Assembly (NCBI GenBank): GCA_030603745.1
Contig: JAUVXE010000003.1
Span: 1 to 64,000 of the forward strand
From: Coriobacteriia bacterium
GTDB lineage: Bacteria > Actinomycetota > Coriobacteriia > Anaerosomatales > SLCP01
Reading direction: 5' to 3'
Length of the DNA: 64,000 bases
The position numbers and the translations under genes were made by a program. Below, piece after piece: positions 9,037-28,774 of this stretch. How positions within the stretch are numbered: position 1 is the first letter of the stretch; every line of letters begins with the position of its first letter. Below the pieces are notes generated by a model that saw only the letters and a program-made list of their open reading frames with translations, searched no databases and was not told the DNA's origin.

Positions 9037-10896
9037 CTACCCCTCGCCCGCACCGTCCGGGGCGCTCTCGAGCGGGAGCGTGAACGCGAACGCGGTGCCC
9101 TTGCCGCGCGCCGAGTCGACCTCGATCGACGAACCGTGCGCCTCCACGATCTCCCTCGCGATCGCAAGGCCGAGCCCGGCCCCGCCCCGACCCGGCCGCG
9201 CCGAGTCGGCCTGGTAGAACCGCTCGAACACGCGCTCCACGTGCTCGGCGGCGATGCCCGGGCCCTGGTCGCTCACGACGAACCGCACGCGGCCCCCGTC
9301 CTCCACGCGCGCGCCGAGCCGCACCACCCGCTCGCCGGGGTCGCCATCCGCCCTGTCCCCGTCCCCGGTCGCCCCTGTGCCGGCCGCGCCCCCTCCCGCC
9401 GAGGAGTGCTTGATCGCGTTGTCGGTGAGGCCGAGGAGCACCTGTACCACGCGGTCCCGGTCGCAGAGCACGCGCGCGTCACGACCCGGTCGCTCCACCT
9501 CGAGACGCACGTCGGCCTGCGCGGCGAGGGTCCGCATGATCCGCGCGACGTCGTCGAGCAGGCCGCCCGCGTCGTGGGGCTCCACTGTGAGCCGCATGCT
9601 CCCCGCGTCGATCTGCGCGAGCGTGAGCAGGTCGGCGACGAGCCGCCCGAGCCGGTCGGTCTCGATCTGCATCGTCGCGATGAAGTCGTCGCGCACCTCC
9701 GGATCCTCGGCAGCCCCGTCGCCGAGGAGCTCGAGGATGCCCTTGAGCGCGGCGATCGGGGTCCGCATCTCGTGGCTCGCGTCGGCGACGAAACGCCGCT
9801 GCGCCTCCTCGATCCTTCGCTGTTCGGTGACGTCGGTGAGCAGGAGGACGGCGCCGTCGACGCGGCCCTCGGCGTCGAAGAGGGTCGTGCAGTTGAGCAG
9901 GCACGTGAACGTGCCGAGGCGGGCGATCCGTGCGGTGCTCTGGCCCTCGAGCGCGGCATCGACCACGGTCCGCACGTCCGGGTAGGCGGCCGCGACCTCC
10001 TCGGCGGGCTGCCCGACCGACCCGTCGCCGGTCAGCCCGAGCAGCCGCTCGGCCTCCGGGTTCATCACCCGCACCGTACCCGTCGCATCGAAGGCGACCA
10101 CGCCCTCGGCCATCGACTGGACCACCGCGGCGATCTGGCGCCGGCTCTCCTCGATCGCGCCGAACGCCGCCCCGAGCCGGACCGCCATCTGGTTGTAGGA
10201 GACCGCGAGGTCACCGATCTCGTCGGGCACCATGCCGACGGGTACGCGCTGCTCGAAGTCGCCGGCGGCGATGGCCGCGGCCGCGCCGAGCATGCTGTCG
10301 ACGCGCCGGCGGATGATCTCGGAGAAGGCGAAGCCGATGAGGCCCGCGATGCCGAGCGAGATCCAGAAGGTGATCCAGAGACGGTGGCGCACCGCGTCGA
10401 GGATGCGCAGCGAGTCGTCGACGGGGCTCGCCGTCACCACCACGCCCTCGCGGGCGCCGTCGGCACCGAAGATGGTGCGGGCCGCGACCGACCAGCCGCC
10501 CGGCCGCAGGTCGACCTCCGCGTAGGCGGCGGTGCCCTCGAGCGCTCCCCGGCGCGCCGCCGCGAGCACCGGCTCGCTCGGTCCGGTGTCGTAGGAGGAG
10601 TGCACGAGCAGCTCGCCGCGGTCGTAGACCCAGATGCCCGCCCCGTAGACGCTGCGGTACTCGAGCAGGACCTCGTCCACCCGGTCGCTGCTCTCAGCGT
10701 CGAGGGGGAACTCCGGGCCGAGGCGACGGGCGAGCGCGGAGGCGTTGCGGGCCTCGGCGCTGCGGCTCATCTCGGAGAGCGTGGCCTGCAGCCCCGCTGA
10801 GAGCGAACCGGAGAGGATGAGGATCGCCACGACGATGACGACGACGAACAGCCCCGTCTGCCAGAAGCGGATCGACGCGCGCCGACGGGGGGCCAT
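9037..10896 (-). CDS. Membrane sensor histidine kinase (HAMP-PAS-HisKA-HATPase)
   Basis: This 619-residue kinase has the PhoR/WalK-type layout. It has a first helix (about residues 14-35), an extracytoplasmic sensor loop of about 135 residues, a second helix (about 174-195), HAMP to about 245, then a PAS domain (about 255-360). The dimerisation/phosphoacceptor region follows with VADASHEMRTP (His about 375). The ATPase domain has its N box at LTDNAIKHSS, a Gly/Ala/Asp-rich insert right after it, and G boxes DQGPGIA and GGAGLGLAIA. It is encoded three bases downstream of its response regulator. Divergent orientation from the multiheme cytochrome operon makes that operon a plausible target, though this is inferred only from position. 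Confidence 0.94.
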   Translation of the reverse strand: MAPRRRASIRFWQTGLFVVVIVVAILILSGSLSAGLQATLSEMSRSAEARNASALARRLGPEFPLDAESSDRVDEVLLEYRSVYGAGIWVYDRGELLVHSSYDTGPSEPVLAAARRGALEGTAAYAEVDLRPGGWSVAARTIFGADGAREGVVVTASPVDDSLRILDAVRHRLWITFWISLGIAGLIGFAFSEIIRRRVDSMLGAAAAIAAGDFEQRVPVGMVPDEIGDLAVSYNQMAVRLGAAFGAIEESRRQIAAVVQSMAEGVVAFDATGTVRVMNPEAERLLGLTGDGSVGQPAEEVAAAYPDVRTVVDAALEGQSTARIARLGTFTCLLNCTTLFDAEGRVDGAVLLLTDVTEQRRIEEAQRRFVADASHEMRTPIAALKGILELLGDGAAEDPEVRDDFIATMQIETDRLGRLVADLLTLAQIDAGSMRLTVEPHDAGGLLDDVARIMRTLAAQADVRLEVERPGRDARVLCDRDRVVQVLLGLTDNAIKHSSAGGGAAGTGATGDGDRADGDPGERVVRLGARVEDGGRVRFVVSDQGPGIAAEHVERVFERFYQADSARPGRGGAGLGLAIAREIVEAHGSSIEVDSARGKGTAFAFTLPLESAPDGAGEG

Positions 10897-10899
10897 CGC

Positions 10900-11580
10900 C
10901 TACGGCTCCCTGAGCCGGTAGCCGTACCCGCGCACCGTGAGGACGTAGTGCGGGTCCTTGGGGTCGCTCTCGAGCTTCTCGCGGATGTTGTGGATGTGCA
11001 CGTCCACGGCGCGCTCGTCGCCCACCGGTGACTCGTCCCACAGCGCCGCGAGGATCGCCTGGCGCGAGTAGGCGGTGCCGGGCTGCTTGGCGAGATGGAG
11101 GAGGATGCCATACTCCGACGTGGTGAGGTGGATCGGCTGGCCGGCGAGCTTGACCTGCCGCGCCCGCGTGTCGATCTCAAGCTCGCCCACCCGGATCACG
11201 GCCTTGCCGGCGGTCGAGCCCTCGGTCCGCCTGAGGATCGCCTTCACCCGGCTCACGAGCTCGCGGGGGGAAAAGGGCTTGGTCACGTAGTCGTCCGCCC
11301 CGAACTCGAGGCCCAAGACCCGGTCGACCTCGTCGCCGCGCGCCGAGAGCATGATGATCGGCGTGTCGGAGTGGGTGCGCAGCTCGCGCGCTACGTCGAG
11401 CCCGGACTTGCCCGGCAGCATGATGTCGAGCACCACGAGGTCGGGGTCGACCTCCGAGAACATGAACTCTGCCCCGGCGGCGTCGGTCGCGGTGTGGACC
11501 TCGTAGCCGGCCTGCGTGAGCGCGTAGGAGACGACCTTGAGGATCGACTCCTCGTCATCGACCACCAGAACACGTGTCAC
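10900..11580 (-). CDS. OmpR/PhoB-family response regulator
   Basis: This 226-residue regulator has an N-terminal receiver with the acidic pair D8/D9, phosphoacceptor D52 (LVVLDIMLPG) and the conserved lysine in YVTKPFSPRE, followed by a winged-helix DNA-binding domain (YSRQAILAALWDE, ERAVDVHIHNIREKLE, TVRGYGYRL). It is first in a two-gene operon with the sensor kinase. The divergent intergenic region to the cytochrome operon carries paired 6-bp direct repeats spaced 11 bp start-to-start at 11645-11661. That spacing is the one this class of regulator uses, so autoregulation is likely. Confidence 0.95.
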   Translation of the reverse strand: MTRVLVVDDEESILKVVSYALTQAGYEVHTATDAAGAEFMFSEVDPDLVVLDIMLPGKSGLDVARELRTHSDTPIIMLSARGDEVDRVLGLEFGADDYVTKPFSPRELVSRVKAILRRTEGSTAGKAVIRVGELEIDTRARQVKLAGQPIHLTTSEYGILLHLAKQPGTAYSRQAILAALWDESPVGDERAVDVHIHNIREKLESDPKDPHYVLTVRGYGYRLREP

Positions 11581-11747: not shown

Positions 11748-12446
11748 GTGAGTGCCATAGAAGCGACGCGACCTGCCACACCGGCCGTAGCGCACGCGCG
11801 ATCGGCAGTGCTCTGCGCGATCGCGGCCGTGCTCGGGGCCGCCCTCCTGCTCCTCGCGCCCCCGCCCGCCGGCGCGGTCGGCCAGGCCGCCTCGGGCGAG
11901 ACGCTCTTCTATCCGTGCACGAGCTGTCATCCGGTCGGCCCGCAGGGGACGGCGACCGGGCTGCCCAACGACTTCCCCGGACACCAGGTCGTCCTCATCG
12001 GCCACGACGCGCTCGGCGAGGGATCGGCCGCCTGCCTCGTCTGTCACGACGACCCCGCACGCGACCCGGGCAAGCTCGTGCTCCTCGACGGCTCGCTCGT
12101 CGACATCACCGGCGACGTCCCGGCGCTCTGTTTCACCTGCCACTCGGAACGCTACCGCGAGTGGGCCGCCGGCACCCACGGCCGCAACCAGCCCTCCTGC
12201 ACCTCCTCGGGCTGCCACGACCCGCACACCCCGGCGTGGGTCTACGGCGACCCGCTCCTGCCCTTCGTGGGGACCGGCTTCCAGGTGAGGTCCGTCTCGG
12301 ACCGCCAGGCCTTCACCCCGCTCGCCGGCCCGCCGGTCAAGGCGCCCGTCGTCACCCCTTCGTGGCTCGTGCTCGCGACGCTGCTCGTCGCGTTCCTGGC
12401 CACCGGAATCGTCGGCTATCTCGTCCGAGGAAGGTCTGCGCGATGA
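11748..12446 (+). CDS. Tetraheme c-type cytochrome with signal peptide and C-terminal anchor
   Basis: This 232-residue exported cytochrome opens the large electron-transfer operon. An N-terminal signal helix (about residues 17-43, ending PPPAGA) leads to an extracytoplasmic domain with three CxxCH sites (CTSCH, CLVCH, CFTCH) and one CxxxxCH site (CTSSGCH), then a single C-terminal membrane helix (LVLATLLVAFLATGIVGYLV) and a short positive tail. Proteins of this build partner ferredoxin and NrfD subunits in quinone-linked complexes. The GTG start is preceded by GAGGTGGT. The stop overlaps the next gene (ATGA). An 8-bp direct repeat (ATATCGAG at 11711 and 11735) lies just upstream and may be regulatory. 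Confidence 0.9.
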   Translation: MSAIEATRPATPAVAHARSAVLCAIAAVLGAALLLLAPPPAGAVGQAASGETLFYPCTSCHPVGPQGTATGLPNDFPGHQVVLIGHDALGEGSAACLVCHDDPARDPGKLVLLDGSLVDITGDVPALCFTCHSERYREWAAGTHGRNQPSCTSSGCHDPHTPAWVYGDPLLPFVGTGFQVRSVSDRQAFTPLAGPPVKAPVVTPSWLVLATLLVAFLATGIVGYLVRGRSAR

Positions 12447-13417
12447 GTGAACCCACCGCTCCCGTGCCTCCGCGTCCGCTCGGGTCCGCCGAGGCGGACA
12501 CGCCGGTGCGGCCCGGTGCCGCACCGCCCCCCGGCGCGACCGTCCCCGAGGGGCTCACGGTCTCGCGACGCCGTTTCCTCGAGGGCATCGGCGCCACCGC
12601 GGGCCTGCTCGCCGCAGGCGTGCTCCCGGCGCTCGCCTCGGCGCTCCCCAAGCGCGCGCAGGCGGCCGAGCCTGCTTCCGCCGAGGGGGTCGCGGACGAC
12701 CCGATCGCTCGGATCGCCGAGCGTAACGCCCCGGTGAACTACCCCGGGCGCCCGGTCTCCTACGCCAAGCCCGCGGGCGACGAGAAGTGGGCGATGGTCA
12801 TCGACGCGACCGCGTGCATCGGCTGTCGTCGCTGCGTGTACGCGTGCGTGCGTGAGAACAACATCGGCCGTGACTCCGGCTTCACCTACATCAAGATCCT
12901 CGAGATGGATGCGGGATCGATCGACATCGAGCACGCCAAGCTCGACTACAAGAAGGGCGGGCAGCCGGGCAAGTGGTACCTGCCCGTGCAGTGCATGCAG
13001 TGCGCCAAGCCCACCTGCGTCTACGGATGCCCCGTCATCGCGACGTGGAAGGAGCCCGACGGCATCGTGGTGATGGACCACGACAAGTGCATCGCGTGCC
13101 GCAACTGCCTCATCACCTGCCCGTACGGCGCCCGGCACTTCAACTGGGTCCACCCGTACGTGCCCGAGGCCGAGGTCAACCCCGACCTTCCCTACGAGGA
13201 GAAGGAGGGGACGGTCGAGAAGTGCCACTTCTGCCTCCACCGCACCCGCAACGGCAACGCCACCACGGCGTGTACCGAGGCGTGCCCGGTGGGTGCGCGG
13301 ACCTTCGGTGACCTGAACGACCCCGACAGCGCGGTGGCCCGCCTCCTGCGCACGCGCCGGGCGTTCCGCCTGAAAGAGGAGCTCGGGAACGAGCCGATGA
13401 TCTGGTATGTGGGGTGA
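12443..13417 (+). CDS. Tat-exported 4x[4Fe-4S] ferredoxin subunit (DmsB/NrfC/HybA type)
   Basis: This 324-residue electron-transfer subunit has a twin-arginine signal (SRRRFLEGIG at about 41-50 followed by a hydrophobic stretch), so it is exported folded. The mature part has the four-cluster pattern of the DMSO-reductase beta subunit family: CIGCRRCVYACVREN, CMQCAKPTCVYGCP, CIACRNCLITCPYGA and CHFCLHRTRNGN...CTEACPVGA. It would pass electrons between the NrfD-type quinone subunit encoded next and the cytochromes. Both junctions overlap (ATGA upstream, start overlap downstream). No molybdopterin catalytic subunit is encoded in the window, so the pair probably serves the cytochromes directly, as in Hmc- or Qrc-like complexes. 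Confidence 0.94.
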   Translation: MSEPTAPVPPRPLGSAEADTPVRPGAAPPPGATVPEGLTVSRRRFLEGIGATAGLLAAGVLPALASALPKRAQAAEPASAEGVADDPIARIAERNAPVNYPGRPVSYAKPAGDEKWAMVIDATACIGCRRCVYACVRENNIGRDSGFTYIKILEMDAGSIDIEHAKLDYKKGGQPGKWYLPVQCMQCAKPTCVYGCPVIATWKEPDGIVVMDHDKCIACRNCLITCPYGARHFNWVHPYVPEAEVNPDLPYEEKEGTVEKCHFCLHRTRNGNATTACTEACPVGARTFGDLNDPDSAVARLLRTRRAFRLKEELGNEPMIWYVG

Positions 13418-13422
13418 TGCGG

Positions 13423-14724
13423 ATGGCTGAGCACGCTACCGTGGCCGCCCCGCCCCGTCCGGGCGTGGTGCGCTTCATCGGCATCGACTGGGACTTCGGG
13501 GCGCTCAAGAGCGCGAGCCCGCGCTACTGGGCGTTCGTCTCGCTCCTCGCGAGCCTCTTCCTCCTCGGCCTGATGGCCTACGCGACCTTCATGACACGGG
13601 GCGGCGAGGTCTTCGCGATGCGCGACGACTACCCTTGGGGCCTGTGGTTCACGAACTACATGTACTACGTGGGCCTCTCGGCGGGCGGCCTGATCGTCTA
13701 CGCGAGCGTGCACCTCTTCGGCGCCGAGCAGTTCCGTCCGCTCTCGCGGCTCGCGGTGCTGATGGCGGGCGTGCTCGTGCTCATGGCGCTCCTCGGCATC
13801 ATCACCGACATGGAGCGGCCGTGGCGCGCGGCGTGGATGCTGCTCACGCCCAACCCCAACTCGCCGTTCGTCTACACCGGTAGCGCGGCCAACATCTACA
13901 TGCTCATCTGCTTCGCGGACCTGTGGGTGCTGCTCACGGGCAAGGGCGGGGAGAAGCTCGCGCATCGCATGACGCTCATCGCGCTGCCCTTCGCCATCTA
14001 CCTCCACACGACCACGGCGTTCGTGCTCGCGCTCAACAAGTCCCGCGAGCTGTGGAACACCGCGGTCATGGTGCCGATCTTCCTGACCTCGGCCACGGCG
14101 TCGGGCATCGCGCTCCTCATGATCGTCGCCTACCTGATGCAGCGGCTCGGCGTGATGCGCTTCAAGCCGAGCATGTTCCGCTCGCTCTCGACGCTGCTCG
14201 CGACGGTCATCATCATCGACCTGTTCCTCATCGCGGTGGAGATCCTCTCGGTCTTCTGGCCCACCTCGTCGCACCCCGGCCACGCGGCCCGGCTCGCGCT
14301 CTTCTTCGAGTCGCCCTACGGGTGGACGTTCATCCCGGTGCTGCTGCTCGGCGCCGGCGCGTTCGCGCTGCTCGCTCCGCGGCGCACCCGGCACCTGCCG
14401 GCGATACAGCTCACAGCGGCCACGATGTACGTGCTGGCGATCTTCCTGAAGCGCTACGCGCTCATGGCCATGGGGTTCGCGATCGATCCCCTCGGCCAGT
14501 TCGCCCCGCCCTACACGCCGAGCCTCGTGGAGGTGCTCATCGCGGTGATGATCCTCTCGATCGGCCTGCTGATCATGACTGCGGCGGCGAAGGTCCTGCC
14601 GCTCCAGGTGCCAGAGGAGGAGATCCTCGCGCACGCGACGGCGCCGGGCCACCTGCACGGGCACGCCTCCGCACCGGTCCCCCTCGAGCCGGCGCCCGCA
14701 CCCGCGGCGCCCGAGGCGGGGTGA
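13423..14724 (+). CDS. NrfD/PsrC-family quinone-interacting integral membrane subunit
   Basis: This polytopic membrane protein has about ten hydrophobic segments and roughly 433 residues. Family marks include the first-helix region after a WDFGALKSASPRYW loop, DDYPWGLWFTNYMYYVGLSAGG (the PWG motif near the quinone site), and ITDMERPWRAAWMLLTPNPNSP. NrfD/PsrC proteins bind menaquinol or menaquinone at the outer membrane face and exchange electrons with a ferredoxin subunit, here the preceding gene. Starts at 13414 (GTG) and 13417 (ATG) overlap the upstream stop. I chose ATG 13423 because GGGGTGA precedes it. The C-terminus is His/Pro/Ala-rich. Seven bases separate it from the next cytochrome. 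Confidence 0.92.
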   Translation: MAEHATVAAPPRPGVVRFIGIDWDFGALKSASPRYWAFVSLLASLFLLGLMAYATFMTRGGEVFAMRDDYPWGLWFTNYMYYVGLSAGGLIVYASVHLFGAEQFRPLSRLAVLMAGVLVLMALLGIITDMERPWRAAWMLLTPNPNSPFVYTGSAANIYMLICFADLWVLLTGKGGEKLAHRMTLIALPFAIYLHTTTAFVLALNKSRELWNTAVMVPIFLTSATASGIALLMIVAYLMQRLGVMRFKPSMFRSLSTLLATVIIIDLFLIAVEILSVFWPTSSHPGHAARLALFFESPYGWTFIPVLLLGAGAFALLAPRRTRHLPAIQLTAATMYVLAIFLKRYALMAMGFAIDPLGQFAPPYTPSLVEVLIAVMILSIGLLIMTAAAKVLPLQVPEEEILAHATAPGHLHGHASAPVPLEPAPAPAAPEAG

Positions 14725-14731
14725 CGGCCCG

Positions 14732-15748
14732 ATGACCCCGCTCACCGACCTGCTCCGCCGCGCAGGCGCCGCGCTCGCGCGCCACCGGGTCCCGATCGCC
14801 TTCGGCGTGCTCGCGCTCGTGGTGCTGCTCGCGGTCCCGCTCGTGGCGACCTCCGTCTCGCCGGCGTTCTTCGGCAGGTATCACGATCTGACGCAGGACG
14901 TCGACGCGTTGCAGGCCTCGATGCACGCGGGCATCCCGTGCGCGAGCTGTCACGCCGACACCCGCCCCCCCGTCGTCGCCACCCTCGCGCTCGCCGGCGA
15001 GTTCTACGCCGGACTCGTCCGTCCTCCGCGCGAGCCGCGCTTCCTGACGTTCGACCCGCCGAGGAGACAGGCGTGCCTCGCGTGTCACGAGACCGCCTGG
15101 AGCCACGACAACGAGCGCACCATGCGCATCCCGCACCCGGTGCACCTGCGCCTGGCCGACGAGACCCGTGAGTGCGTCGAGTGCCACAAGTGGACGGCGC
15201 ACGACGAGGTCCAGATCGAGCCGCACAAGGAGATGCCGTTCTCGGGCGTGTGCGTCGCCTACGGGTGCCACGTGGGCTTCCGCGCCGCCGACGAGTGCAC
15301 GAGCTGCCACCACGCGCTGCGCGAGGGGCCGCTCACCTGGGCCGAGGAACACCCGGTCGTCGCTCGCACCATCGGCATCAACGCGTGCCTCGAGGCGTGC
15401 CACGACGCCGACCAGTGCCGCCTCTGTCACACGACCGGCGAGCGGCCCGTCTTCGACGGCCTGCGGACCGAGACGGGGCTCGAGGCGATCGAGCGCCTGC
15501 ACGTACGGCCGGACTGGACCGACTCGCATGGGCCGATCGCCTTCGAGGACCAGGCCGCGTGCATGCGCTGCCACGTCACCGACAACGAGTGCCGCTCGTG
15601 CCACGCGCACCGGCCGGCCTCCCACGACCCCGTCGAGACGTGGATCAGCCGCCACAAGGACGTCGTGGAGGACGAGCGCCGCTGCCTGACCTGCCACGAG
15701 GAGTCCTGGTGCCAGGAGTGTCACGACCAGTTCAAGGAGATGCGCTAG
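14732..15748 (+). CDS. Membrane-anchored undecaheme c-type cytochrome
   Basis: This 338-residue protein has a single N-terminal uncleaved helix (about 20-42) followed by the SPAFFGRY motif shared with the next two genes. I count nine CxxCH sites plus one CxxxCH (CLEACH) and one CxxxxCH (CVAYGCH), giving 11 possible haems. A RPASH motif and then the C-terminal module W-x3-H ... CLTCHEESWCQECH end the protein. Many free histidines could serve as distal ligands. The layout places the haem domain outside the cytoplasmic membrane, fed by the NrfD/ferredoxin pair. The following gene starts immediately at the stop. I do not recognise an exact named family. Confidence 0.92.
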   Translation: MTPLTDLLRRAGAALARHRVPIAFGVLALVVLLAVPLVATSVSPAFFGRYHDLTQDVDALQASMHAGIPCASCHADTRPPVVATLALAGEFYAGLVRPPREPRFLTFDPPRRQACLACHETAWSHDNERTMRIPHPVHLRLADETRECVECHKWTAHDEVQIEPHKEMPFSGVCVAYGCHVGFRAADECTSCHHALREGPLTWAEEHPVVARTIGINACLEACHDADQCRLCHTTGERPVFDGLRTETGLEAIERLHVRPDWTDSHGPIAFEDQAACMRCHVTDNECRSCHAHRPASHDPVETWISRHKDVVEDERRCLTCHEESWCQECHDQFKEMR

Positions 15749-16609
15749 GTGACCGCGCACGAGACGCCGCACCCTCCCGGCGAGGGCGGAGCGCCTGACC
15801 CCGCGGGGACTCCCGCGGGTCCGGCCGCGCCGGCGCCCGGGCGCCGGCGGCGCGCCGTGGTGGCGGTCGCGCTCGTCGTGGTGCTGCTCGCGCTCCTCGT
15901 CGTGCCGCTCGTCTCGACGCTGCAGCCCGCCTACTATGCGCGCTACCCCGGCCTCGGCGAGCGGATGGACAACTGGGCGGTCTCGACCCACAGCCGCATG
16001 AGCTGCGTGAGCTGCCATGTCCACCCGGGCGCGCGAGGTTTCGCCGCCTTCGCCGTCCGCTCGATCCCCGCGTTCTACTCGCGGCTCGTCTTCGGGCCGA
16101 GCGAGGACAACCTCCTCGAGGCGCCGGACCGCGACATGTGCCAGACCTGCCACACCGCCTACCGGCAGGTGTCCGCCGACGGCGACCTGCTCATCCCGCA
16201 CCGGGCCCACGTCGAGATCCTCGAGGTCGACTGCGTGGTCTGCCACCGCGACCTCGTGCACGCGGAAAGCCCCGAGGGCTTCAACCGTCCGCAGATGCGC
16301 ATGTGCCTGGAGGAGTGCCACAACGGCGAGATCGCCGGGAACGAGTGCGTGAAGTGCCACACGCGCAAGCACGTCCCCGACGACCACCTCCGCGACGATT
16401 GGCTCCAGATACACGCCGAGCGGGCGGACACCGAGGAGTGCGGCTCGTGTCATGAGTGGACGCCCGACTACTGCGAGGACTGCCACAGCCAGCGGCCCGC
16501 CTCCCACGTGGGCAACTGGAAGTCGGGCCACGCCGAGCGGGCCCGCACCCACGGTTCAGGGTGCCTCGTCTGTCACGGCGGCGCGGCCTTCTGCGAGGAG
16601 TGTCACTGA
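15749..16609 (+). CDS. Membrane-anchored nonaheme c-type cytochrome
   Basis: This 286-residue protein has a Pro/Gly/Ala-rich N-terminus of about 35 residues, then one membrane helix (VVAVALVVVLLALLVVPLV) and the motif QPAYYARYPGL. There are eight CxxCH sites and one CxxxCH (CLEECH), nine possible haems. The final haem motif is followed directly by the stop codon. It is clearly a paralogue of the next protein: both share SRMSCVSCH/ARVSCRSCH, a GDLLIPHRAHVE block, a RPASH motif and the same C-terminal diheme module. The GTG start abuts the preceding stop. The stop overlaps the next ATG (TGATG). Confidence 0.92.
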   Translation: MTAHETPHPPGEGGAPDPAGTPAGPAAPAPGRRRRAVVAVALVVVLLALLVVPLVSTLQPAYYARYPGLGERMDNWAVSTHSRMSCVSCHVHPGARGFAAFAVRSIPAFYSRLVFGPSEDNLLEAPDRDMCQTCHTAYRQVSADGDLLIPHRAHVEILEVDCVVCHRDLVHAESPEGFNRPQMRMCLEECHNGEIAGNECVKCHTRKHVPDDHLRDDWLQIHAERADTEECGSCHEWTPDYCEDCHSQRPASHVGNWKSGHAERARTHGSGCLVCHGGAAFCEECH

Positions 16610-17472
16610 TGCGCGCACCGTGGGCACGTCGTCTCGAAGGGAGGACACCGGCCGAGCGCCGCTGGTTCTTCGCGCGCCTCGGCCTGGCCACGCTCGCGGT
16701 GGTCGTGCTCGTGATCGCGCCGGCGTACCTGGCGTCGCAGCCCTCGTTCCTCTCCCGCTACGCCGGCTACGAGCACGCCTACGACACGTGGACCGAGTCC
16801 CTCCACGCGCGCGTCTCGTGCCGGTCCTGCCACGTCGAGCCGGGGCTGGTGGCGCAGGCCGGCTACTCCGCGCGGATGTTCGGGGAGTTCTACCTCTCGA
16901 TCGTGCGCCCGGCCCGCGAGCCCGACGTCATGGCCCGGCCCACCAACGAGGCGTGTTCGCGCTGTCACGCCGAGCTGCGCGTGGTGTCTCCCACCGGCGA
17001 CCTGTTGATCCCGCACCGCGCGCACGTCGAGATGCTCGGCATGGAGTGCGTCGAGTGCCACGACTACCTCGTGCACGAGGTGACCGCCGACGGCGTCCAC
17101 ACCCCGCCGATGAGCGGCTGCCTGACCTGCCACGACGGGGTGACCGCCAAGAAGGAGTGCTCGGCGTGCCACACCGACAAGGACCAGCCCGCGAGCCACG
17201 AGGAGCCCGGCTGGCTCGTCGCGCACGCCTCCTCGGCCCCCGACGACCCCGAGTGCACCACCTGCCATGAGTGGACGGAGCACTGGTGCGCCGACTGCCA
17301 CGACGTCCGTCCCGCCTCCCACGGAGAGCAGTGGCGGGCCCAGCACCGCGCGGTGGTGGCCGCGTCCGACCGCCGCAACTGCGAAGCCTGCCACGAGGGA
17401 CCGTTCTGCGTGCGGTGCCACGGCGTGGTGCCGCTGCTCAACCTCGATCCGACGCTTCGGCGGGCGCAGTGA
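16609..17472 (+). CDS. Membrane-anchored nonaheme c-type cytochrome (paralogue of preceding)
   Basis: This 287-residue protein has an N-terminal helix (about 26-46) followed by SQPSFLSRYAGY. It has nine regular CxxCH sites. It aligns along its whole length with the upstream nonaheme protein, including TGDLLIPHRAHVEML, the CxDCHxVRPASH motif and the ending W-x3-H ... CEACHEGPFCVRCH, so the two arose by tandem duplication, with the undecaheme protein a more distant third copy. The ATG at 16609 overlaps the previous stop. The in-frame ORF extends further upstream but only as out-of-frame shadow of the previous gene. Confidence 0.93.
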   Translation: MRAPWARRLEGRTPAERRWFFARLGLATLAVVVLVIAPAYLASQPSFLSRYAGYEHAYDTWTESLHARVSCRSCHVEPGLVAQAGYSARMFGEFYLSIVRPAREPDVMARPTNEACSRCHAELRVVSPTGDLLIPHRAHVEMLGMECVECHDYLVHEVTADGVHTPPMSGCLTCHDGVTAKKECSACHTDKDQPASHEEPGWLVAHASSAPDDPECTTCHEWTEHWCADCHDVRPASHGEQWRAQHRAVVAASDRRNCEACHEGPFCVRCHGVVPLLNLDPTLRRAQ

Positions 17473-17473
17473 G

Positions 17474-18487
17474 GTGGCCGAGGTGACCGAGCCTGTCGCC
17501 GAGCGCCGAGGACCGTTCGCCACCAGGGGCCGGATCGCCCTGATCGTCGTGGTGGGCGTGCTCGCGCTCGTGGCGGTGGCCGACGCGGTCACCGGCTCCC
17601 CGGCGCTCTGCGGCTCGTGTCACGAGATGGAGCCCGCGGCGGCGGCCTGGGCCGAGTCGGCGCACGTGAACGTGGGGTGCGTGTCGTGTCACGAGACGCC
17701 GAGGGCCTGGTACGCCCGTCCGATGCGCCTCGCGGAGCGGGGCCGCCTGCTCGCGCGTGACGTCACCCGCCACCTCCAGGGCCGCTACGGCGAGCCCGCC
17801 GACCCGAGCGCGGTCGGGCGCACCTCGCCCATGCCCGACGAGGTCTGCCTCCAGTGCCACACCGCCGACCGTCGCGCGACGTCGGGCTTCCGGATCCTCA
17901 TCGACCACGTGGAGCACGCCGAGCGGACCGGCTCGTGCGTGGCGTGCCACGTCTACACCGCCCACCCCGACGCCGAGCTCGGGCGGCCACTCTCGCTCAT
18001 GACCCGGTGCTTCGACTGCCACGGGACCGCCGCCGAGCCTGCCGCGTCGGCCGCGTGCGCGACCTGTCATCCCGCCGACTTCGACCTGCGTCCGCCCTCG
18101 CACCTCGCGGACCCCTGGATGCGCGATCACGGCCTTCCCGCCGAGGCGAACCGAGAGCTGTGCGCGATGTGCCACCAGCAGGCGTACTGCGACTCGTGCC
18201 ACGGCGTGGAGATGCCGCACCCGGAGGCGTGGGGCGGCCCCGGCCCCGCGGGACACGGGCCCGTCGGGACCGCGCGACCGGAGGTCTGCATCCGCTGCCA
18301 TACCGAGCGGCCCGATCCCTGCAGCGCCTGCCACCACGTGGGCTACGACGCCGCCGAGGGCCCCTGGCTCGAGCAGCACGCCGTGGTGGCGCGGGGTGAG
18401 GGGACCGCGTCGTGCATGGAGTGCCACGAGCCGACCGCCTGCGCGCGTTGTCACCGTCAGCCCCCGGCACCTGCCGAGGAGCCGTAG
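17474..18487 (+). CDS. NapC/NrfH-like dodecaheme c-type cytochrome
   Basis: This protein of about 337 residues has one N-terminal helix (IALIVVVGVLALVAVADAV). The first haem site, CGSCHEMEP, and the following SAHVNVGCVSCHE are the classical start of NapC/NrfH quinol dehydrogenases. Twelve CxxCH sites are present in total. A CDSCHGVEMPHP motif is shared with the distant cytochrome at 23522, and the C-terminal module W-x3-H ... CMECHEPTACARCH is shared with all of the anchored cytochromes here. It probably takes electrons from menaquinol or from the NrfD complex. The start is a GTG just after the preceding stop; GTG 17483 is an alternative. It ends the operon. Confidence 0.92.
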   Translation: MAEVTEPVAERRGPFATRGRIALIVVVGVLALVAVADAVTGSPALCGSCHEMEPAAAAWAESAHVNVGCVSCHETPRAWYARPMRLAERGRLLARDVTRHLQGRYGEPADPSAVGRTSPMPDEVCLQCHTADRRATSGFRILIDHVEHAERTGSCVACHVYTAHPDAELGRPLSLMTRCFDCHGTAAEPAASAACATCHPADFDLRPPSHLADPWMRDHGLPAEANRELCAMCHQQAYCDSCHGVEMPHPEAWGGPGPAGHGPVGTARPEVCIRCHTERPDPCSACHHVGYDAAEGPWLEQHAVVARGEGTASCMECHEPTACARCHRQPPAPAEEP

Positions 18488-18952: not shown

Positions 18953-19423
18953 ATGCGTGTCACCCTCCCGGCCGCACGCGGCCGCCGGTTCGCACCCTTC
19001 ATCGCCCTGTCCGCGCTCGCCCTCTCCCTGTCCGTCCTCGCCGGCTGCGCCGGCGGCGCCTCGGCCGACGACGCGATCGGCGTGAACGCCCTGACCGCCG
19101 ACCCGCAGGCGTTCAGCGGCGAGATCGCCGTCGTGGGCGTGGTGCAGGACGTCTCGGCCGACTCCTCGGCCATCACGCTCATCGACCTGACCGAGTACGA
19201 GACCTGCGGCCTCACCCCGTGCGGCGGCGCGGGGATCCTGCCGCTCTTCCTTCCCACGTCCGGCACCCCGGCGCCCTCCGGCGCGCTCTACGAGGGCTCC
19301 CTGCCCGCGCTCGAGGACCAGGTGGTCGTCACCGGCACGATCCGCTCCGCCGAGAGCGGCCTTTACTTCGATGTCGAGCGCGTCGACCGCGGGTCGGCCA
19401 CGCTCATGACCAAGCAGCGGTAG
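18953..19423 (+). CDS. Lipoprotein with possible OB-fold-like domain
   Basis: This 156-residue lipoprotein has a positively charged N-terminus, a hydrophobic stretch and the lipobox SVLAGC (Cys about residue 30). The mature region is beta-rich (AVVGVVQDVSADSSAITLIDL, VVVTGTIRSAESGLYFDVERV) and resembles small OB-fold nucleic-acid/haem-chaperone-like domains by pattern only. A CGLTPCGG pair of cysteines sits in the middle and could bind metal. The next gene, a MacB-type permease, follows nine bases after the stop, and the ATPase overlaps that, so these three form an operon. The transported substrate is unknown. Confidence 0.7.
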   Translation: MRVTLPAARGRRFAPFIALSALALSLSVLAGCAGGASADDAIGVNALTADPQAFSGEIAVVGVVQDVSADSSAITLIDLTEYETCGLTPCGGAGILPLFLPTSGTPAPSGALYEGSLPALEDQVVVTGTIRSAESGLYFDVERVDRGSATLMTKQR

Positions 19424-19432
19424 GGCGGGCCG

Positions 19433-20596
19433 ATGAACGACTTCAAGCTCGTCGTCCGCAACCTCCTCGGGAGCAGGAGCCGCTTCGCGCTCACGCTCGT
19501 GGGGATCACGCTCGGCATCACCTCGCTCGTGGTGATGATGAGCCTCGGCGCGGGCCTGCGCGCCCAGATCGACAAGCAGGCGGCCGACCTCGGCGCGAAC
19601 CTCATCGTCACGCCCAAGGGCTGGTGCGCTTACGAGCAGGTCAAGGTACTCTCGGGCACCCAGCTACCCGACGCGATCCCCGCCGAGGACCTCGCCGCCA
19701 TCGAACAACTCGAGGGCATCCGCGTGCTGCCGTACCTCACGGTCGGCTCGGCGATCGACAACGAGCCGGTCCCCGTGACCGGGATCCGCATGGACGAGAC
19801 GGTCGCCTCCAAGCGGTGGAGCCTCGCCGAGGGAGAGGTCCCGCAGGCCGAGGAGGCGCTCGAGGTGCTCGCCGGCGCCGCCGTCGCCGACTCGTTCGGG
19901 CTCGCGGTGGGCGACGCGCTCACGCTGCGGGGGGCGACCTTCACGGTCGCCGGCGTACTCGAGGCGGCTGGGACCGGTGACGACGGGGTGCTCTTCATCC
20001 CGCTCGCGGCGGCGCAGAAGGTCTACGAGACCGACGGCCGGATCTCGTTCGCGGCCGTGCAGGTCGACGACCTCGACGCGGTGGACCTCGCCGCGCAGCG
20101 CATCACCGACGCCGCCAACGTCGCGGTCGTCTCCGACCGCCAGCTGCTCGCCTCGGTGCTCAGCGTCGTCAACACCGTGAGCACCACGCTGCGCATCATC
20201 GCGGCCGTCGCCGTGCTCACCGCCGCCTTCGGCATCGTGAACACGATGCTCATGGCCACCTTCGAGCGGCGCCGTGAGATCGGCATCATGAAGTCGATCG
20301 GGAGTTCGAACGCCCGGATCTTCCGTACCTTCATGGCCGAGGCCGCGACCTACGGGGTGGTGGGCGGTCTCATCGGCCTTGCGGTAGGCACGGGGGTGTC
20401 CCGTCTGCTCACCCCGCTCATCGCGCAGAACGAGTTCACCGCGTTCGTGGGCGGTGCGCGGGTCGACGCCGTGCCGCCGCTCGCCGACATGGCGCTCATC
20501 CTCGGCGGGGCGGTCGTCGTGGCCACGCTCGCCGGCGTCTATCCCGCGTGGCGCGCAGCGCGCCTGACCCCGGTGGAGGCGATCAGCTATGAGTAG
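19433..20596 (+). CDS. MacB/FtsX-type ABC transporter permease
   Basis: This 387-residue permease has the MacB topology: one N-terminal helix (FALTLVGITLGITSLVVMMSL), a large extracytoplasmic domain of about 210 residues, then three helices at the C-terminus (ending VVVATLAGVYPAWRAARLTPVEAI). The cytoplasmic coupling segment FERRREIGIMKSIGSSNARIF is the expected FtsX motif. The stop overlaps the ATPase start. Such transporters work as mechanotransmitters or lipid/peptide/haem exporters rather than typical importers. Given the lipoprotein upstream and the cytochromes on both sides, a role in envelope assembly is plausible. Confidence 0.9.
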   Translation: MNDFKLVVRNLLGSRSRFALTLVGITLGITSLVVMMSLGAGLRAQIDKQAADLGANLIVTPKGWCAYEQVKVLSGTQLPDAIPAEDLAAIEQLEGIRVLPYLTVGSAIDNEPVPVTGIRMDETVASKRWSLAEGEVPQAEEALEVLAGAAVADSFGLAVGDALTLRGATFTVAGVLEAAGTGDDGVLFIPLAAAQKVYETDGRISFAAVQVDDLDAVDLAAQRITDAANVAVVSDRQLLASVLSVVNTVSTTLRIIAAVAVLTAAFGIVNTMLMATFERRREIGIMKSIGSSNARIFRTFMAEAATYGVVGGLIGLAVGTGVSRLLTPLIAQNEFTAFVGGARVDAVPPLADMALILGGAVVVATLAGVYPAWRAARLTPVEAISYE

Positions 20597-21311
20597 CGCA
20601 CCGATGGGAGCCGCGATCACCGGCGGGACCACCGCCGCGCGAGAGCACGTCATGACCGTGCGCGACGCCCACAAGACCTACGAGGGGAGAGGCGTGCCGG
20701 TCCATGCGCTACGCGGCGTGGACCTCGACATCGACACCGGCTCGTTCACCTGCCTCATCGGGCCGTCCGGCCACGGCAAGAGCACGCTGCTGCATCTCCT
20801 CGGCGGGCTGGACCGGCCGAGCAGCGGGAGCGTGACCGTGCTCGGCGAGCACATCGAGCGGATGAGCGACGCCCAGCTCGCGCGGTTCCGCGCGCACCGG
20901 ATCGGGTTCGTGTTCCAGTTCTTCAACCTGCTCAAGGGCCTCACCGTGGCCGAGAACGTCCAGCTCGCCATGTCGTTCGCCGGTGCGTCCGCCCGCGAGC
21001 AGCGGAGCCGCACCGACGAGTTGCTCGCGTCGGTCGGCCTCTCGGCGAAGCGGGACGCCCGCGCCAACGAGCTCTCCGGCGGCCAGATGCAGCGGGTCGC
21101 GATCGCGCGGGCGCTCGCGAACGACCCGGAGGTGCTCCTGCTCGACGAGCCCACCGGCAACCTCGACTCGGCCTCCGAGTCCGAGGTGCTGGGCATCCTC
21201 GACGGGCTGCACGCCGAGGGCCGCACCATCGTGATGGTCACGCACAGCCTCGAGATCGCCGCGCGCGCCGAACGCATCGTCGAGGTGCACGACGGCCGGG
21301 TGCTCGCCTAG
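20589..21311 (+). CDS. ABC transporter ATP-binding protein (MacB/LolD type)
   Basis: This 240-residue ATPase of the LolD/MacB branch has Walker A GPSGHGKST (with His in place of the common Ser or Cys), a Q-loop in FVFQFFNLLKGLTV, signature LSGGQMQRV, Walker B VLLLDEPTGNLD and the H-loop VTHS. It pairs with the permease encoded immediately upstream, with an 8-base overlap. A strong stem-loop follows 10 bases after the stop, closing the lipoprotein-permease-ATPase transcription unit. Confidence 0.93.
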   Translation: MSSAPMGAAITGGTTAAREHVMTVRDAHKTYEGRGVPVHALRGVDLDIDTGSFTCLIGPSGHGKSTLLHLLGGLDRPSSGSVTVLGEHIERMSDAQLARFRAHRIGFVFQFFNLLKGLTVAENVQLAMSFAGASAREQRSRTDELLASVGLSAKRDARANELSGGQMQRVAIARALANDPEVLLLDEPTGNLDSASESEVLGILDGLHAEGRTIVMVTHSLEIAARAERIVEVHDGRVLA

Positions 21312-23521: not shown

Positions 23522-24724
23522 ATGCGCAACCCGCTTGCCGGCTATGCCGACCCTGTGCGAAGGCCGCGCTTCATCGTATGGACGGCTGTCGGGGTCATCC
23601 TGCTCGTGACGGTCCTGATCGGTTCGCTCGCGGGGACCTCCACCCGCTGGTTCTGCAACGAGGTGTGCCATGTCGTGCACTACGACAACGCCCGCCAGTA
23701 CGAGGCGTCCACGCACTCCAACGTCTCGTGTCTGGCCTGTCACATCCCGGCCAACCTCGACGGCATCCGCTTCACGGCCGAGAAGGCGGAGAAGCTGCCC
23801 GACGTCTGGGAGGTGCTCACGAACACGTTCCACCTGCCGCTCAACGAGGCGTCCTACCTCGCACTCTCCATGCCCGAGGTCCAGTGCACCCAGTGCCACA
23901 GCATGGCGAACCGGCCGGCGACGCCGAGCGAGGGCATCGTGATCGATCACGCGGTCCACTCGGAGGCCGGCATCGCCTGCGCCGTGTGTCACAACCGCGT
24001 GGCCCACGCGCAGGTCGAGGAACTCACGCTTCCGGGCAACGCCTACTACGAAGAGTTCATGTCGATGACCGCCTGCTACCGGTGCCACACTCTCACCGGC
24101 GACTCCCCGAGCGAGTTCGTCGCGACCGGTGAGTGCGCTGCCTGCCACACGCCTGGTTTCGAACTCAAGCCCCCCAGCCACTTCGAGCCGGGCTTCTACA
24201 CGCAGTACGGCGACTCGCGCGGACACGCCGAACTCGCGAACGCCGAGCTCGAGAAGGTGGCCGCCGCCGAGGAGTACTGGGCCGAGGTCGGGCCCAAGTT
24301 GCGCGACAAGAAACCCAAGCCGATCTCGCGCCTGCTCCGCATCCCGCACGGCGAGTTCCTCGACCTGCCGCCGGTCGCCGCGGTGGACGAGTGCGGCACG
24401 TGCCACGTGCGCGACACGTTCTGCGACGGGTGTCACACGCTCGAGATGCCCCACCCCGCGAACTTCACCGAGCAGCACGCCGCCCTCGGCGACGCGGACC
24501 CGGAGAGTTGCGCGCTGTGCCACAACAAGACGGGCGACCCCGCACTGAACGCCACCTCGTGTGACCAGTGCCACCATCCCGCAGGCAATCCGCGCCAGCC
24601 GTGGCTCGCCCAGCATGACGACGCGGCGCGCGCGACCGATATCCGGACCGACTGCTACGCCTGTCACGAGGAGATCTTCTGCTCCGTGTGTCACGTGCGC
24701 GGGGTCAAGCCGAGCAGGTACTGA
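23522..24724 (+). CDS. NapC/NrfH-like dodecaheme c-type cytochrome
   Basis: This 400-residue protein has one N-terminal helix (FIVWTAVGVILLVTVLIGSL). The first haem site is CxxxCH (CNEVCH), followed by HSNVSCLACHIPA. With 11 CxxCH sites, 12 haems are possible. A charged stretch of about 60 residues without haem motifs (roughly 240-300) splits the protein. CDGCHTLEMPHP is shared with the dodecaheme protein at 17474, and the C-terminal module W-x3-H ... CYACHEEIFCSVCH is shared with all five anchored cytochromes. ATG 23522 has GAGGAAC upstream. A TATCCT at 23488-23493 could be the -10. It is followed by a strong terminator, so it is monocistronic. Confidence 0.92.
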   Translation: MRNPLAGYADPVRRPRFIVWTAVGVILLVTVLIGSLAGTSTRWFCNEVCHVVHYDNARQYEASTHSNVSCLACHIPANLDGIRFTAEKAEKLPDVWEVLTNTFHLPLNEASYLALSMPEVQCTQCHSMANRPATPSEGIVIDHAVHSEAGIACAVCHNRVAHAQVEELTLPGNAYYEEFMSMTACYRCHTLTGDSPSEFVATGECAACHTPGFELKPPSHFEPGFYTQYGDSRGHAELANAELEKVAAAEEYWAEVGPKLRDKKPKPISRLLRIPHGEFLDLPPVAAVDECGTCHVRDTFCDGCHTLEMPHPANFTEQHAALGDADPESCALCHNKTGDPALNATSCDQCHHPAGNPRQPWLAQHDDAARATDIRTDCYACHEEIFCSVCHVRGVKPSRY

Positions 24725-24833: not shown

Positions 24834-24871
24834 TTGACGGTTGCCCCCCGTGCGCTTAGTATTGGCTAAGC
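24834..24871 (+). promoter_or_regulatory. Sigma70-type promoter overlapped by dyad operator (iron-box-like)
   Basis: TTGACG at 24834-24839, then exactly 17 bases, then TAGTAT at 24857-24862, form a good housekeeping promoter for the iron ABC operon. A perfect inverted repeat, GCTTAG at 24854-24859 and CTAAGC at 24866-24871 with a six-base spacer, covers the -10. This resembles the TTAG...CTAA frame of DtxR/IdeR iron boxes. Repression by an iron-loaded regulator is inferred. The start codon is about 75 bases downstream. Confidence 0.65.
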
Positions 24872-24939
24872 CATACGCCGATAGTGTGCGAAGCATCGCC
24901 CTCTCGGCCAGCCCCATCACCCCGCACAAGGAGGACCGC

Positions 24940-26040
24940 ATGACCCGCACGCTCACCGCGCCCGGCACCGGCCGGCGCCTCCGTCACCTCGCTTCTCTCG
25001 CCGGGATCCTGGCACTCGTTCTCGCGCTCGGTCTCACCGGTTGCGCCACCACCTCCGATGCGCCTCCGGCGACCTCGGACGACGAGGCCTCCGGCGAGCT
25101 CGTGGTCTACTCGTCGCGCAACGAGAAGTTCGTCGACCCGCTCCTCGAGAAGTTCACGGCCGACACCGGGATCGCCGTGCGTGCGCTGCACGCCGGTGAC
25201 ACCGTGGTCAACAAGCTGCGCGAGGAGTCGGCGAACGTTCAGGCCGACATCGTGATCGCCAACGACATCGGCGCGCTCGAATACCTCAGGCTCGAGGGCC
25301 TGCTCGCCGAGCCGGGAGCGCTCGAGGGCATCGACTCGATCGATCCGGCCTACCGGGCCCAGGACGACTCCTGGATCGCGCTCTCCGCCCGGACGCGGGT
25401 GCTCATGTACAACGCCGATCTCGTCTCGGCCGATGAGATCCCGTCCCGCATCGAGGACCTGGCCGATCCAGCGTACGAGGGCATGTTCGCCATCACCCGC
25501 GGCGGTAACGGCGGCATGATCGGACACGTCTCCGCGCTGCGCGCCGAGTGGGGCGACGAGCGCACCGAGGAGTGGGTCGCCGCCGTCAAGGAGAACGCCG
25601 GCGCGATCATGGAGGGTCACGGCGACATCCGCAAGGCCGTGGGCGCGGGCGAGTTCGCCTTCGGCCTGGTGAACAACTACTACTACCACCAGCAGCTGCG
25701 TGAGCCGAGCGACAACAACGTCGGCGTGGTCTATCCGGACCAGGGTGCCGGCGAGATGGGCGCGGTGGTCAACGCCGCCGGCGTGGGCCTTGTCGCCGGC
25801 GCGCCCAACGCGGACAACGCGCGGGTCTTCCTCGAGTGGCTCCTGCTCCCCGAGAACCAGAAGGAGTTCAGCTTCGCGTCCCTCGAGGTGCCGATCAACC
25901 CCGAGATCGAGGCCGTCGAGGAGGCCACCCCCATCTCCGGGTATCGTGTACATGGCATGCCGCTCTCCCGCCTCGGCGAGGTATGGGAGGACACCCGCTC
26001 GCTCATCGAGCGCGCTGGGCTGGACCTGGAGCTCAAGTAA
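24940..26040 (+). CDS. Iron(III) ABC transporter substrate-binding lipoprotein
   Basis: This 366-residue solute-binding protein of the FbpA/AfuA (periplasmic-binding type 2) family has a perfect AAGGAGGAC site before the ATG. A signal peptide ends in the lipobox LGLTGC, so it is tethered to the outer face of the membrane. Family marks are GELVVYSSRNEKFVDPLLEKF, FTADTGIAVRALHAG and RTRVLMYNADLV, with NNYYYHQQL holding the adjacent tyrosines that coordinate ferric iron in FbpA proteins. It begins a three-gene importer operon with permease and ATPase. The dyad over its promoter suggests iron control. Confidence 0.92.
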   Translation: MTRTLTAPGTGRRLRHLASLAGILALVLALGLTGCATTSDAPPATSDDEASGELVVYSSRNEKFVDPLLEKFTADTGIAVRALHAGDTVVNKLREESANVQADIVIANDIGALEYLRLEGLLAEPGALEGIDSIDPAYRAQDDSWIALSARTRVLMYNADLVSADEIPSRIEDLADPAYEGMFAITRGGNGGMIGHVSALRAEWGDERTEEWVAAVKENAGAIMEGHGDIRKAVGAGEFAFGLVNNYYYHQQLREPSDNNVGVVYPDQGAGEMGAVVNAAGVGLVAGAPNADNARVFLEWLLLPENQKEFSFASLEVPINPEIEAVEEATPISGYRVHGMPLSRLGEVWEDTRSLIERAGLDLELK

Positions 26041-26043
26041 CGG

Positions 26044-27636: not shown

Positions 27637-27637
27637 G

Positions 27638-28774
27638 ATGGCTGTCCGTCCGAGTGAGCGCCCGTCCGCTCCTGCCATCGAACTCGCGGGGGTGTCCAAG
27701 ACCTACCCCGGCACGTCCGCCCCGGCCGTCGACGACCTCACGCTCGCCATCGAGCCGGGGACGATCACGACGCTCCTCGGCCCGAGCGGGTGCGGCAAGA
27801 CCACCACCCTTCGCCTGATCGCCGGGTTCGAGCGACCGGACGCCGGGAGCATCGAGCTCGCCGGGGTCACCGTCGCCGGTCCCGGCGCATGGGTGGCGCC
27901 CGAGCGGCGGGGGATCGGCATGGTCTTCCAGGAGCACGCCCTCTTCCCGCACCTCGACGTGAGCCGCAACGTCGGCTTCAACCTGCGCGGCCGGGAGCGC
28001 GACCGGCGGGTCGCCGAGGTGCTCGACGTGGTGGGGCTCTCCGGGTTCGCGCGCCGGATGCCGCACGAGCTCTCGGGCGGCCAGCAGCAGCGGGTCGCGC
28101 TCGCCCGCGCGCTCGCGCACGAGCCGGTGGTGGTGCTCTTCGACGAGCCGTTCTCGAGTCTCGACGCCGACCTGCGCGTGCACATGCGCGCCGAGATGCG
28201 CCGGATCCTCACCGGCACCGGGACGACCGCCGTCTTCGTCTCCCACGACCAGTCCGACGCGCTCGCGATCTCCGACCGCATCGTCGTGATGCGCGAGGGC
28301 CGCATCGAGCAGCAGGGGAGCCCGCGCGAGATCTACCAGTTCCCGCATACGCGCTTCGTCGCGGACTTCGTGGGCCGGACCAACCTGCTCACCGGCCGGA
28401 TCGGCGCCGACGCGTCCTCCATCGACACCGACCTCGGTGCGATCGCCTGCCGCCACACGCACGACCTCCCGCCGGGCACCCCGGTCGTGGTCTCCGTGCG
28501 TGCCGACAGCCTCGAGCTCGACGCCGAGGGGCCCGTGCGCGGGCGTATCAAGGAGACCACCTACACCGGCCGCTCGATCGACGCGGTCGTCGAGGTCGAG
28601 CTCGCCGAGGGCCGGACCGCCGACCTCATGGTCCACGCGCACCCCGAGCAGGTGGTCGAGTGCGGCGATGAGGTGCGCTTCCGGGTGCTGCCCGACTTCG
28701 TCGCGGTGATCGCCGACGGGGACGCGTCGGCCGCCGCCTGCCGTGCCTGTCCGCCGGCCGAGCCTACCCGGTAG
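27638..28774 (+). CDS. Iron(III) ABC transporter ATP-binding protein
   Basis: This 378-residue ATPase of the FbpC/PotA branch has Walker A GPSGCGKTT, Q-loop MVFQEHALFPHLDV, signature LSGGQQQRVALARAL, Walker B VVVLFDEPFSSLD and H-loop FVSHD, with a C-terminal TOBE region (about 245-360). It completes the iron import operon. The convergent MFS gene ends only four bases downstream, so no separate terminator lies between them. Confidence 0.94.
   Translation: MAVRPSERPSAPAIELAGVSKTYPGTSAPAVDDLTLAIEPGTITTLLGPSGCGKTTTLRLIAGFERPDAGSIELAGVTVAGPGAWVAPERRGIGMVFQEHALFPHLDVSRNVGFNLRGRERDRRVAEVLDVVGLSGFARRMPHELSGGQQQRVALARALAHEPVVVLFDEPFSSLDADLRVHMRAEMRRILTGTGTTAVFVSHDQSDALAISDRIVVMREGRIEQQGSPREIYQFPHTRFVADFVGRTNLLTGRIGADASSIDTDLGAIACRHTHDLPPGTPVVVSVRADSLELDAEGPVRGRIKETTYTGRSIDAVVEVELAEGRTADLMVHAHPEQVVECGDEVRFRVLPDFVAVIADGDASAAACRACPPAEPTR

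Follow-up and report, generated by a model that had tools for sequence, protein, structure and literature searches.

A conserved seven-gene, 45-haem operon of Anaerosomatales with a predicted NrfD-type quinone module

We analysed a stretch of 64,000 nucleotides (the window; positions 1 to 64,000 of contig JAUVXE010000003.1) from a Coriobacteriia bacterium of the order Anaerosomatales, focusing on an operon of seven genes, g1 to g7, that encodes an NrfD-type membrane protein, an exported ferredoxin-like subunit and five multihaem cytochromes. The reading that we favour, although with modest confidence, is that these genes specify a quinol dehydrogenase of the membrane which supplies an outward wire of haems leading to a separately encoded acceptor; a quinol-to-haem conduit, as proposed in an initial annotation made from the sequence alone, remains the best account. 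According to this proposal, the NrfD protein g3 would bind quinol near the outer membrane face, the exported four-cluster g2 would take the electrons from g3 and hand them on to the tetrahaem cytochrome g1, and the four anchored cytochromes g4 to g7, with 41 of the 45 haems of the operon, would then form the second half of the path towards the acceptor. The most likely acceptor would be one or several of the genome's other multihaem cytochromes, from which the electrons would finally reach something extracellular. The seven products may assemble into one physical complex, and g7, which has a NapC/NrfH-type first haem, may provide a second entry for quinol. The operon is probably regulated by the two-component system encoded next to it.

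Gene content of the operon

The seven genes are all found on the forward strand between positions 11748 and 18487, as tightly packed as had been annotated, with neighbouring genes either overlapping (ATGA or TGATG) or separated by no more than 7 nucleotides (Table 1). One correction concerns the starts of g2, g6 and g7, which lie within longer open reading frames, near 12443, 16609 and 17474. Motif counting gave 41 CXXCH, two CX4CH and two CX3CH sites, bearing out the earlier figures of 4, 11, 9, 9 and 12 haems, 45 in all. The source genome is a draft assembly of 28 contigs (2.14 Mb), which could speak for an assembly artefact or a chance cluster of CXXCH-like codons. However, the CXXCH-coding pattern matches the forward strand of the operon 41 times, when only about 0.2 matches would be expected by chance on that strand, based on a control in which the same pattern was reversed (105 matches over the complete 2.14 Mb sequence, the two strands taken together), and the same gene order and types of haem motif are found in about 20 other genomes from two classes. 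We thus consider the probability of an artefact to be negligible.

Table 1. Genes of the operon and of the adjacent two-component system (coordinates in the window).
Feature	Coordinates	Strand	Remarks
g1: tetrahaem cytochrome c	11748..12446	+	3 CXXCH + CX4CH; PF09699
g2: Tat-exported ferredoxin-like subunit	12443..13417	+	four [4Fe-4S]-type cysteine sets
g3: NrfD/PsrC-family membrane subunit	13417..14724	+	PF03916; ActC-like fold; predicted quinone site
g4: 11-haem membrane-anchored cytochrome	14732..15748	+	9 CXXCH + CX4CH + CX3CH; NapC-type paralogue without first haem
g5: 9-haem membrane-anchored cytochrome	15749..16609	+	8 CXXCH + CX3CH; NapC-type paralogue without first haem
g6: 9-haem membrane-anchored cytochrome	16609..17472	+	9 CXXCH; NapC-type paralogue without first haem
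g7: 12-haem NapC/NirT-type cytochrome	17474..18487	+	12 CXXCH; retains CXXCHEM first haem
OmpR-type response regulator	10900..11580	-	divergent from g1; beside operon in most relatives; likely regulator
PAS/HAMP sensor histidine kinase	9037..10896	-	partner of the OmpR-type regulator

Among the first three products, g1 displays a transmembrane-like segment at its N-terminus (signal or membrane segment), as annotated, and a second, weaker one at its C-terminus, where an anchor had been proposed. In the g2 protein (324 residues), a twin-arginine signal is conserved and 16 cysteines are invariant across 15 sequences, and it is because of these 16 invariant cysteines that we predict four clusters, in line with the Tat-exported four-cluster ferredoxin annotated before; its nearest curated models are DsrO and QrcC. 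The g3 protein, encoded by the sole NrfD gene of the genome, scores 112 bits against PF03916 (cut-off 25.8), in full agreement with its annotation as an NrfD-type membrane protein, and its predicted structure (pLDDT 75, pTM 0.77) resembles the C subunits of alternative complex III (ActC; TM about 0.75) more than PsrC. Defining an NrfD module as an NrfD-family membrane subunit of 8-10 helices with an adjacent subunit carrying up to four Fe-S clusters, g3 and g2 together classify as a predicted NrfD/PsrC-FeS quinone redox module.

In most families of such membrane subunits, the quinone site consists of an acidic residue or a histidine followed by a serine about 18 residues further on (PMC8076601). 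Asp131 and Ser149 of g3 have this published spacing and align to His139 and Ser164 of Rhodothermus ActC; Asp131 is found in 13 of 14 g3 sequences (the remaining one has a glutamate) and Ser149 in 11 of the 14, making the pair the predicted quinone site of g3. Two other residues are invariant in g3 sequences, namely His197, whose ActC equivalent His247 is part of the proton path, and Arg346, which aligns to Arg395; Asp169 and Asp253 of ActC have no g3 counterpart in the alignment. Electron transfer by the module may be coupled to protons.

The other four proteins, g4 to g7, each have a single N-terminal transmembrane-like segment, fitting their annotation as anchored cytochromes. They can be aligned throughout with one another and with an extra 11-haem NapC-like cytochrome of the window (23522-24724, forward strand), and all five look like NapC/NirT-type paralogues. 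The gene of this extra cytochrome is found just upstream of those of an ABC transporter (24841-28774; solute-binding protein, permease and ATPase). In the operon, the CXXCHEM first haem is kept in g7 only, while g4 to g6 lack the cysteines of that haem. The g7 protein scores 35.4 bits against PF03264 (NapC/NirT; cut-off 24.1), its counterpart in a genome from another class (G527, see below) is also above the cut-off, and the CXXCHEM motif is found in 15 of the 17 g7 homologues of relatives (the exceptions being L045 and L046). In NapC/NrfH proteins, the first haem is the one that sits nearest the quinol; judging from this motif, g7 could be a second point of quinol entry. In one relative (G053, L049 2-817), the g7 homologue is 69% identical to that of the window when the rest of the operon is 47-63% identical, a difference that may reflect an exchange of g7 or recombination.

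Conservation of the operon and a trio with another partner

The core g1 to g6 is found in the same order at 19 loci of relatives, as a search for the gene order in other genomes, suggested in the initial annotation, revealed. The position of g7 varies: it either follows g6 or lies divergently upstream of g1, the divergent arrangement being scattered over several places in a tree of g1 to g6 (in which the window and L031 are joined at full support), and an intact g7 was not seen nearby in L044 and L048. The haem counts 4/11/9/9 of g1 and g4 to g6 are held in the 19 relatives almost motif for motif. The CX4CH sites of g1 and g4 are kept in all 19. In a few genomes, CXXCH stands in place of a CX3CH site of g4 or g5, an interchange that speaks for the CX3CH sites being genuine haem sites.

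Within the Anaerosomatales, 30 of 69 genomes carry this NrfD type with its four cytochromes (the four-wire type) and two carry a variant. A search of 396 genomes of the phylum outside the order gave one further full copy, in G527, which belongs to another class of Actinomycetota and is the sole carrier among 36 genomes of its class: the complete set of seven genes is there in unchanged order, with 4/11/9/9/12 haems and 39-54% protein identity. We also scanned 84,980 species genomes with two short g3 peptide patterns only, a scan that missed G527 itself, so that other phyla may hold copies. The carriers that have names, relatives of gut actinobacteria, are all uncultured metagenome-assembled genomes or similar uncultured assemblies. 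A plasmid origin was rejected, as plasmid NrfD proteins are just 25-29% identical and nearly all haloarchaeal.

Most copies of the operon have genes for a response regulator and a histidine kinase next to them. When we compared the neighbourhoods of about 20 loci, no gene beyond this two-component system and the cytochromes was common to most of them, indicating that no catalytic subunit is co-encoded; within the cluster itself, none of these loci has a molybdoenzyme or any other catalytic subunit, which extends to the relatives what had been noted for the window. Directly downstream of the operon of the window (18953-21311, forward strand) are a lipoprotein-like gene and genes for a MacB-type permease and an ABC ATPase; MacB-type ABC ATPases are also found near the operon loci of some relatives. 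Rfam and tRNA scans of the window gave no matches.

One family of the order (f6; G073 and G141, at L050 10449-15087 and L056 3624-7627) encodes homologues of g1, g2 and g3 (37-46% identity at L050) followed by a single octahaem protein of about 660 residues, without the four cytochromes. The fourth of the eight haem motifs of this protein is CXXCK, and the protein matches PF02335 as well as solved eight-haem nitrite reductases (4e-24). The f6 loci are the strongest sign in these sequences that the cytochrome-FeS-NrfD trio is an exchangeable quinol-linked module, serving either an octahaem nitrite reductase or four wires. Because the f6 trio adjoins such a reductase, an enzyme that needs electrons from a module of this kind, these loci support a quinol-oxidising role, with the trio as a quinol-linked electron source and the four cytochromes in the place of the catalytic subunit. 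The f6 and four-wire loci thus offer a natural comparison in which the quinol module is the same and the output is different. The f6 arrangement itself looks like an undescribed Nrf-like one.

The same loci could also be taken to mean that the wires serve one dedicated soluble reductase (for nitrite, sulfur or another compound) encoded at a separate locus, in a split-locus anaerobic respiration without any extracellular conduit. The f6 loci tie the trio to an octahaem nitrite reductase and several NrfD-containing systems do have a dedicated reductase (PMC8076601). Yet, a profile search detected no NrfA-type PF02335 reductase in the genome of the window and, across the order, NrfA-type proteins, the only reductases examined, are found in 7 of 30 carriers of the operon and in 9 of 37 non-carriers. 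NrfA was therefore rejected as the hidden, co-conserved catalytic subunit whose existence the initial annotation had considered. Given also that the roughly 20 loci share only the two-component system and the cytochromes, we regard a dedicated reductase as improbable.

Relation to known NrfD-containing systems

The initial annotation had considered that the set could prove to be an already named Hmc, Qrc or alternative complex III variant. The first three genes do have the order cytochrome-FeS-NrfD of the DsrJOP half of DsrMKJOP, and, among curated models, g2 and g3 match DsrO and DsrP best. However, these matches stay below the cut-offs (172 of 200 bits for DsrO and 149 of 350 for DsrP), no DsrM- or DsrK-like gene is shared around the loci, g1 has four haem motifs when DsrJ is described as a trihaem protein, and the four extra cytochromes have no place in DsrJOP. 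Membership in QrcABCD was rejected as well (QrcC 149.9 of 400 bits, QrcD 55.4 of 570, and no QrcB in the cluster), as was membership in HmcABCDEF, of which HmcA is a 16-haem protein (best scores of 24.6 of 400 bits for HmcA, 94.6 of 420 for HmcB and 57.0 of 550 for HmcC). The operon shares a cytochrome-FeS-NrfD module with NrfABCD and octahaem nitrite reductase systems, but the cytochromes of four-wire loci have no CXXCK catalytic haem, NrfC and NrfD reach just 112 of 378 and 24 of 348 bits, and NrfA is missing from the genome. Concerning alternative complex III, g2 is far shorter than ActB chains (933-1039 residues) and the single NrfD gene leaves no candidate for ActF. The cut-offs of the curated HybA/B models were not reached by operon proteins either.

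Close likenesses are found among modules that have no catalytic subunit. SirCD of Shewanella, made of an NrfD-type and an exported 4Fe-4S subunit, is reported to pass quinol electrons to several pathways and to replace CymA in part (PMC11434368, PMC8524038), and Cbc4 (CbcSTU) of Geobacter, which has been linked to extracellular electron transfer, is described as a menaquinol:ferricytochrome c oxidoreductase (PMC11434368). Set beside SirCD by description, the operon has the same two types of subunit; unlike SirCD, which serves the periplasmic carriers of a diderm, it co-encodes a tetrahaem and four anchored multihaem cytochromes in a lineage with Gram-positive walls. By published architecture, the trio also matches CbcSTU, with a cytochrome c, a CbcT/DsrO-type FeS subunit and an NrfD-type membrane protein, but CbcSTU consists of three genes and has no fixed four-cytochrome set. 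The lack of a catalytic subunit beside an NrfD/FeS pair is therefore not as unusual as had been assumed, all the more since such pairs may "operate alone" (PMC6303296). The possibility that the operon is a divergent member of one of these named complexes (Dsr, Hmc, Qrc, Nrf, alternative complex III or Cbc4) has in its favour the DsrJOP-like order and scores and the CbcSTU-like trio. Since the curated cut-offs are unmet, since the cluster lacks DsrM, DsrK, a QrcB/ActB-like protein and NrfA, and since four extra cytochromes are foreign to all six complexes, we consider it very unlikely.

Like NapC/NirT quinol dehydrogenases such as CymA and NrfH, g7 has an N-terminal domain above the Pfam cut-off and a CXXCHxM first haem, but it is no small protein of this type, having 12 haems and paralogues (g4 to g6) that lack the first haem. 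We know of no homologous operon in Carboxydothermus ferrireducens or Thermincola. The proposed path nevertheless resembles extracellular electron transfer in these organisms (OcwA in Thermincola), where quinol-oxidising multihaem proteins of the membrane are followed by multihaem proteins of the wall and surface (PMC7829351, PMC6703420), with the difference that NrfD is unmentioned in the text of PMC7829351. As for the claim of a new respiratory complex, the module itself is of a known kind, as are all the parts, and it is the fixed addition of four wire cytochromes that appears undescribed: within the library searched, as far as its texts were accessible, the seven-gene set is not described in the literature on Anaerosomatales or on extracellular electron transfer that involves NrfD.

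Direction of electron flow and possible acceptors

Two isolates of the Anaerosomatales (formerly OPB41) have Gram-positive cell walls, supporting the assumption of a single-membrane host, and grow with H2 or formate as donor and sulfur compounds or Fe(III) as acceptor (PMC9686372). The genome of the window is rich in other multihaem proteins, including one with 21 CXXCH motifs, and encodes system II (ResB/CcsB) for cytochrome c assembly. The ResB/CcsB pair has as its neighbour a protein with 38 CXXCH and five longer motifs in about 1,800 residues (L052 5075-10474, contig 10). Once the operon's own motifs were removed, carriers of the operon still had more CXXCH pairs than non-carriers (median of 96 vs 65, p = 0.003 with 17 pairs subtracted and p = 0.04 with 27 pairs subtracted, phylogeny being ignored in both cases). 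Delivery of electrons to the outside of the cell is a plausible hypothesis.

The genome also encodes an exported formate dehydrogenase that is split by an in-frame stop at QARI*H (L095 5914-9549, contig 20). Encoded beside it are cytochromes with 20, 13 and 7 haems, a cytochrome b561, and TPR and NHL proteins. Formate dehydrogenases often carry selenocysteine at the position of this stop, and the enzyme is probably a selenocysteine-containing one.

Could the module work in reverse, with electrons from outside passing along the multihaem chain and through g1, g2 and g3 into the quinone pool? The donors would be the exported formate dehydrogenase, a hydrogenase, partner cells or minerals. Qrc and Nhc do use their NrfD/FeS modules as cytochrome:quinone oxidoreductases (PMC6303296, PMC8076601), the formate dehydrogenase of the genome lies beside large cytochromes, and the growth of the isolates on H2 or formate (PMC9686372) would fit as well. 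But a cytochrome b561 subunit is already encoded with the formate dehydrogenase, which hence needs no substitute for Qrc, the QrcC and QrcD cut-offs are not reached, and the pairing of the f6 trio with a nitrite reductase points to quinol oxidation. We therefore judge reverse flow to be rather unlikely.

Several observations weigh against an outward quinol dehydrogenase. Sequence cannot give the direction of electrons, and Qrc is a module of the same kind that works in the opposite direction (PMC6303296). Ser149 is replaced by alanine in 3 of the 14 g3 sequences, and the structure model of g4 (pLDDT 49) was too poor for use and was left out of the fold search. Isolates of the order were found to be without detectable respiratory quinones (PMC9686372). 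The genome does encode a UbiE/MenG-type methylase and one MqnA/MqnD-family protein (PF02621), but where this family is present there is a single protein per genome (MqnA or MqnD, never both), and it is missing from 29 of 69 Anaerosomatales genomes, so that a complete menaquinone pathway is unproven. Its presence among the genomes of the order is only weakly linked to the operon, the association not being significant, and PF02621 was consequently rejected as a co-conserved menaquinone marker. Finally, the operon is absent from G005 and G016, which fit Parvivirga hydrogeniphila and Anaerosoma tenue (strain match inferred); one of these two cultured-type genomes fits an obligate Fe(III) reducer and the other a sulfur reducer. 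P. hydrogeniphila is also described as having neither the FeS nor the anchor subunits of CISM complexes (PMC9686372). Because the genomes fitting cultured members lack it, Anaerosomatales can probably reduce Fe(III) without the operon, and the potential of the order for Fe(III) reduction cannot be tied to this operon.

A quinol dehydrogenase with an outward wire remains the reading that we favour. More tentatively, the operon might represent an ancient complex of Actinomycetota in which one NrfD quinol dehydrogenase became permanently coupled to four NapC-derived cytochromes, a complex that would lack a catalytic subunit and carry electrons out of the cell across a Gram-positive-type wall. Electron transfer across the thick wall of Gram-positive-type cells is known from very few organisms, and a fixed set of seven genes and 45 haems, conserved in one actinobacterial order and also found in a second class, offers a concrete candidate that can be tested.

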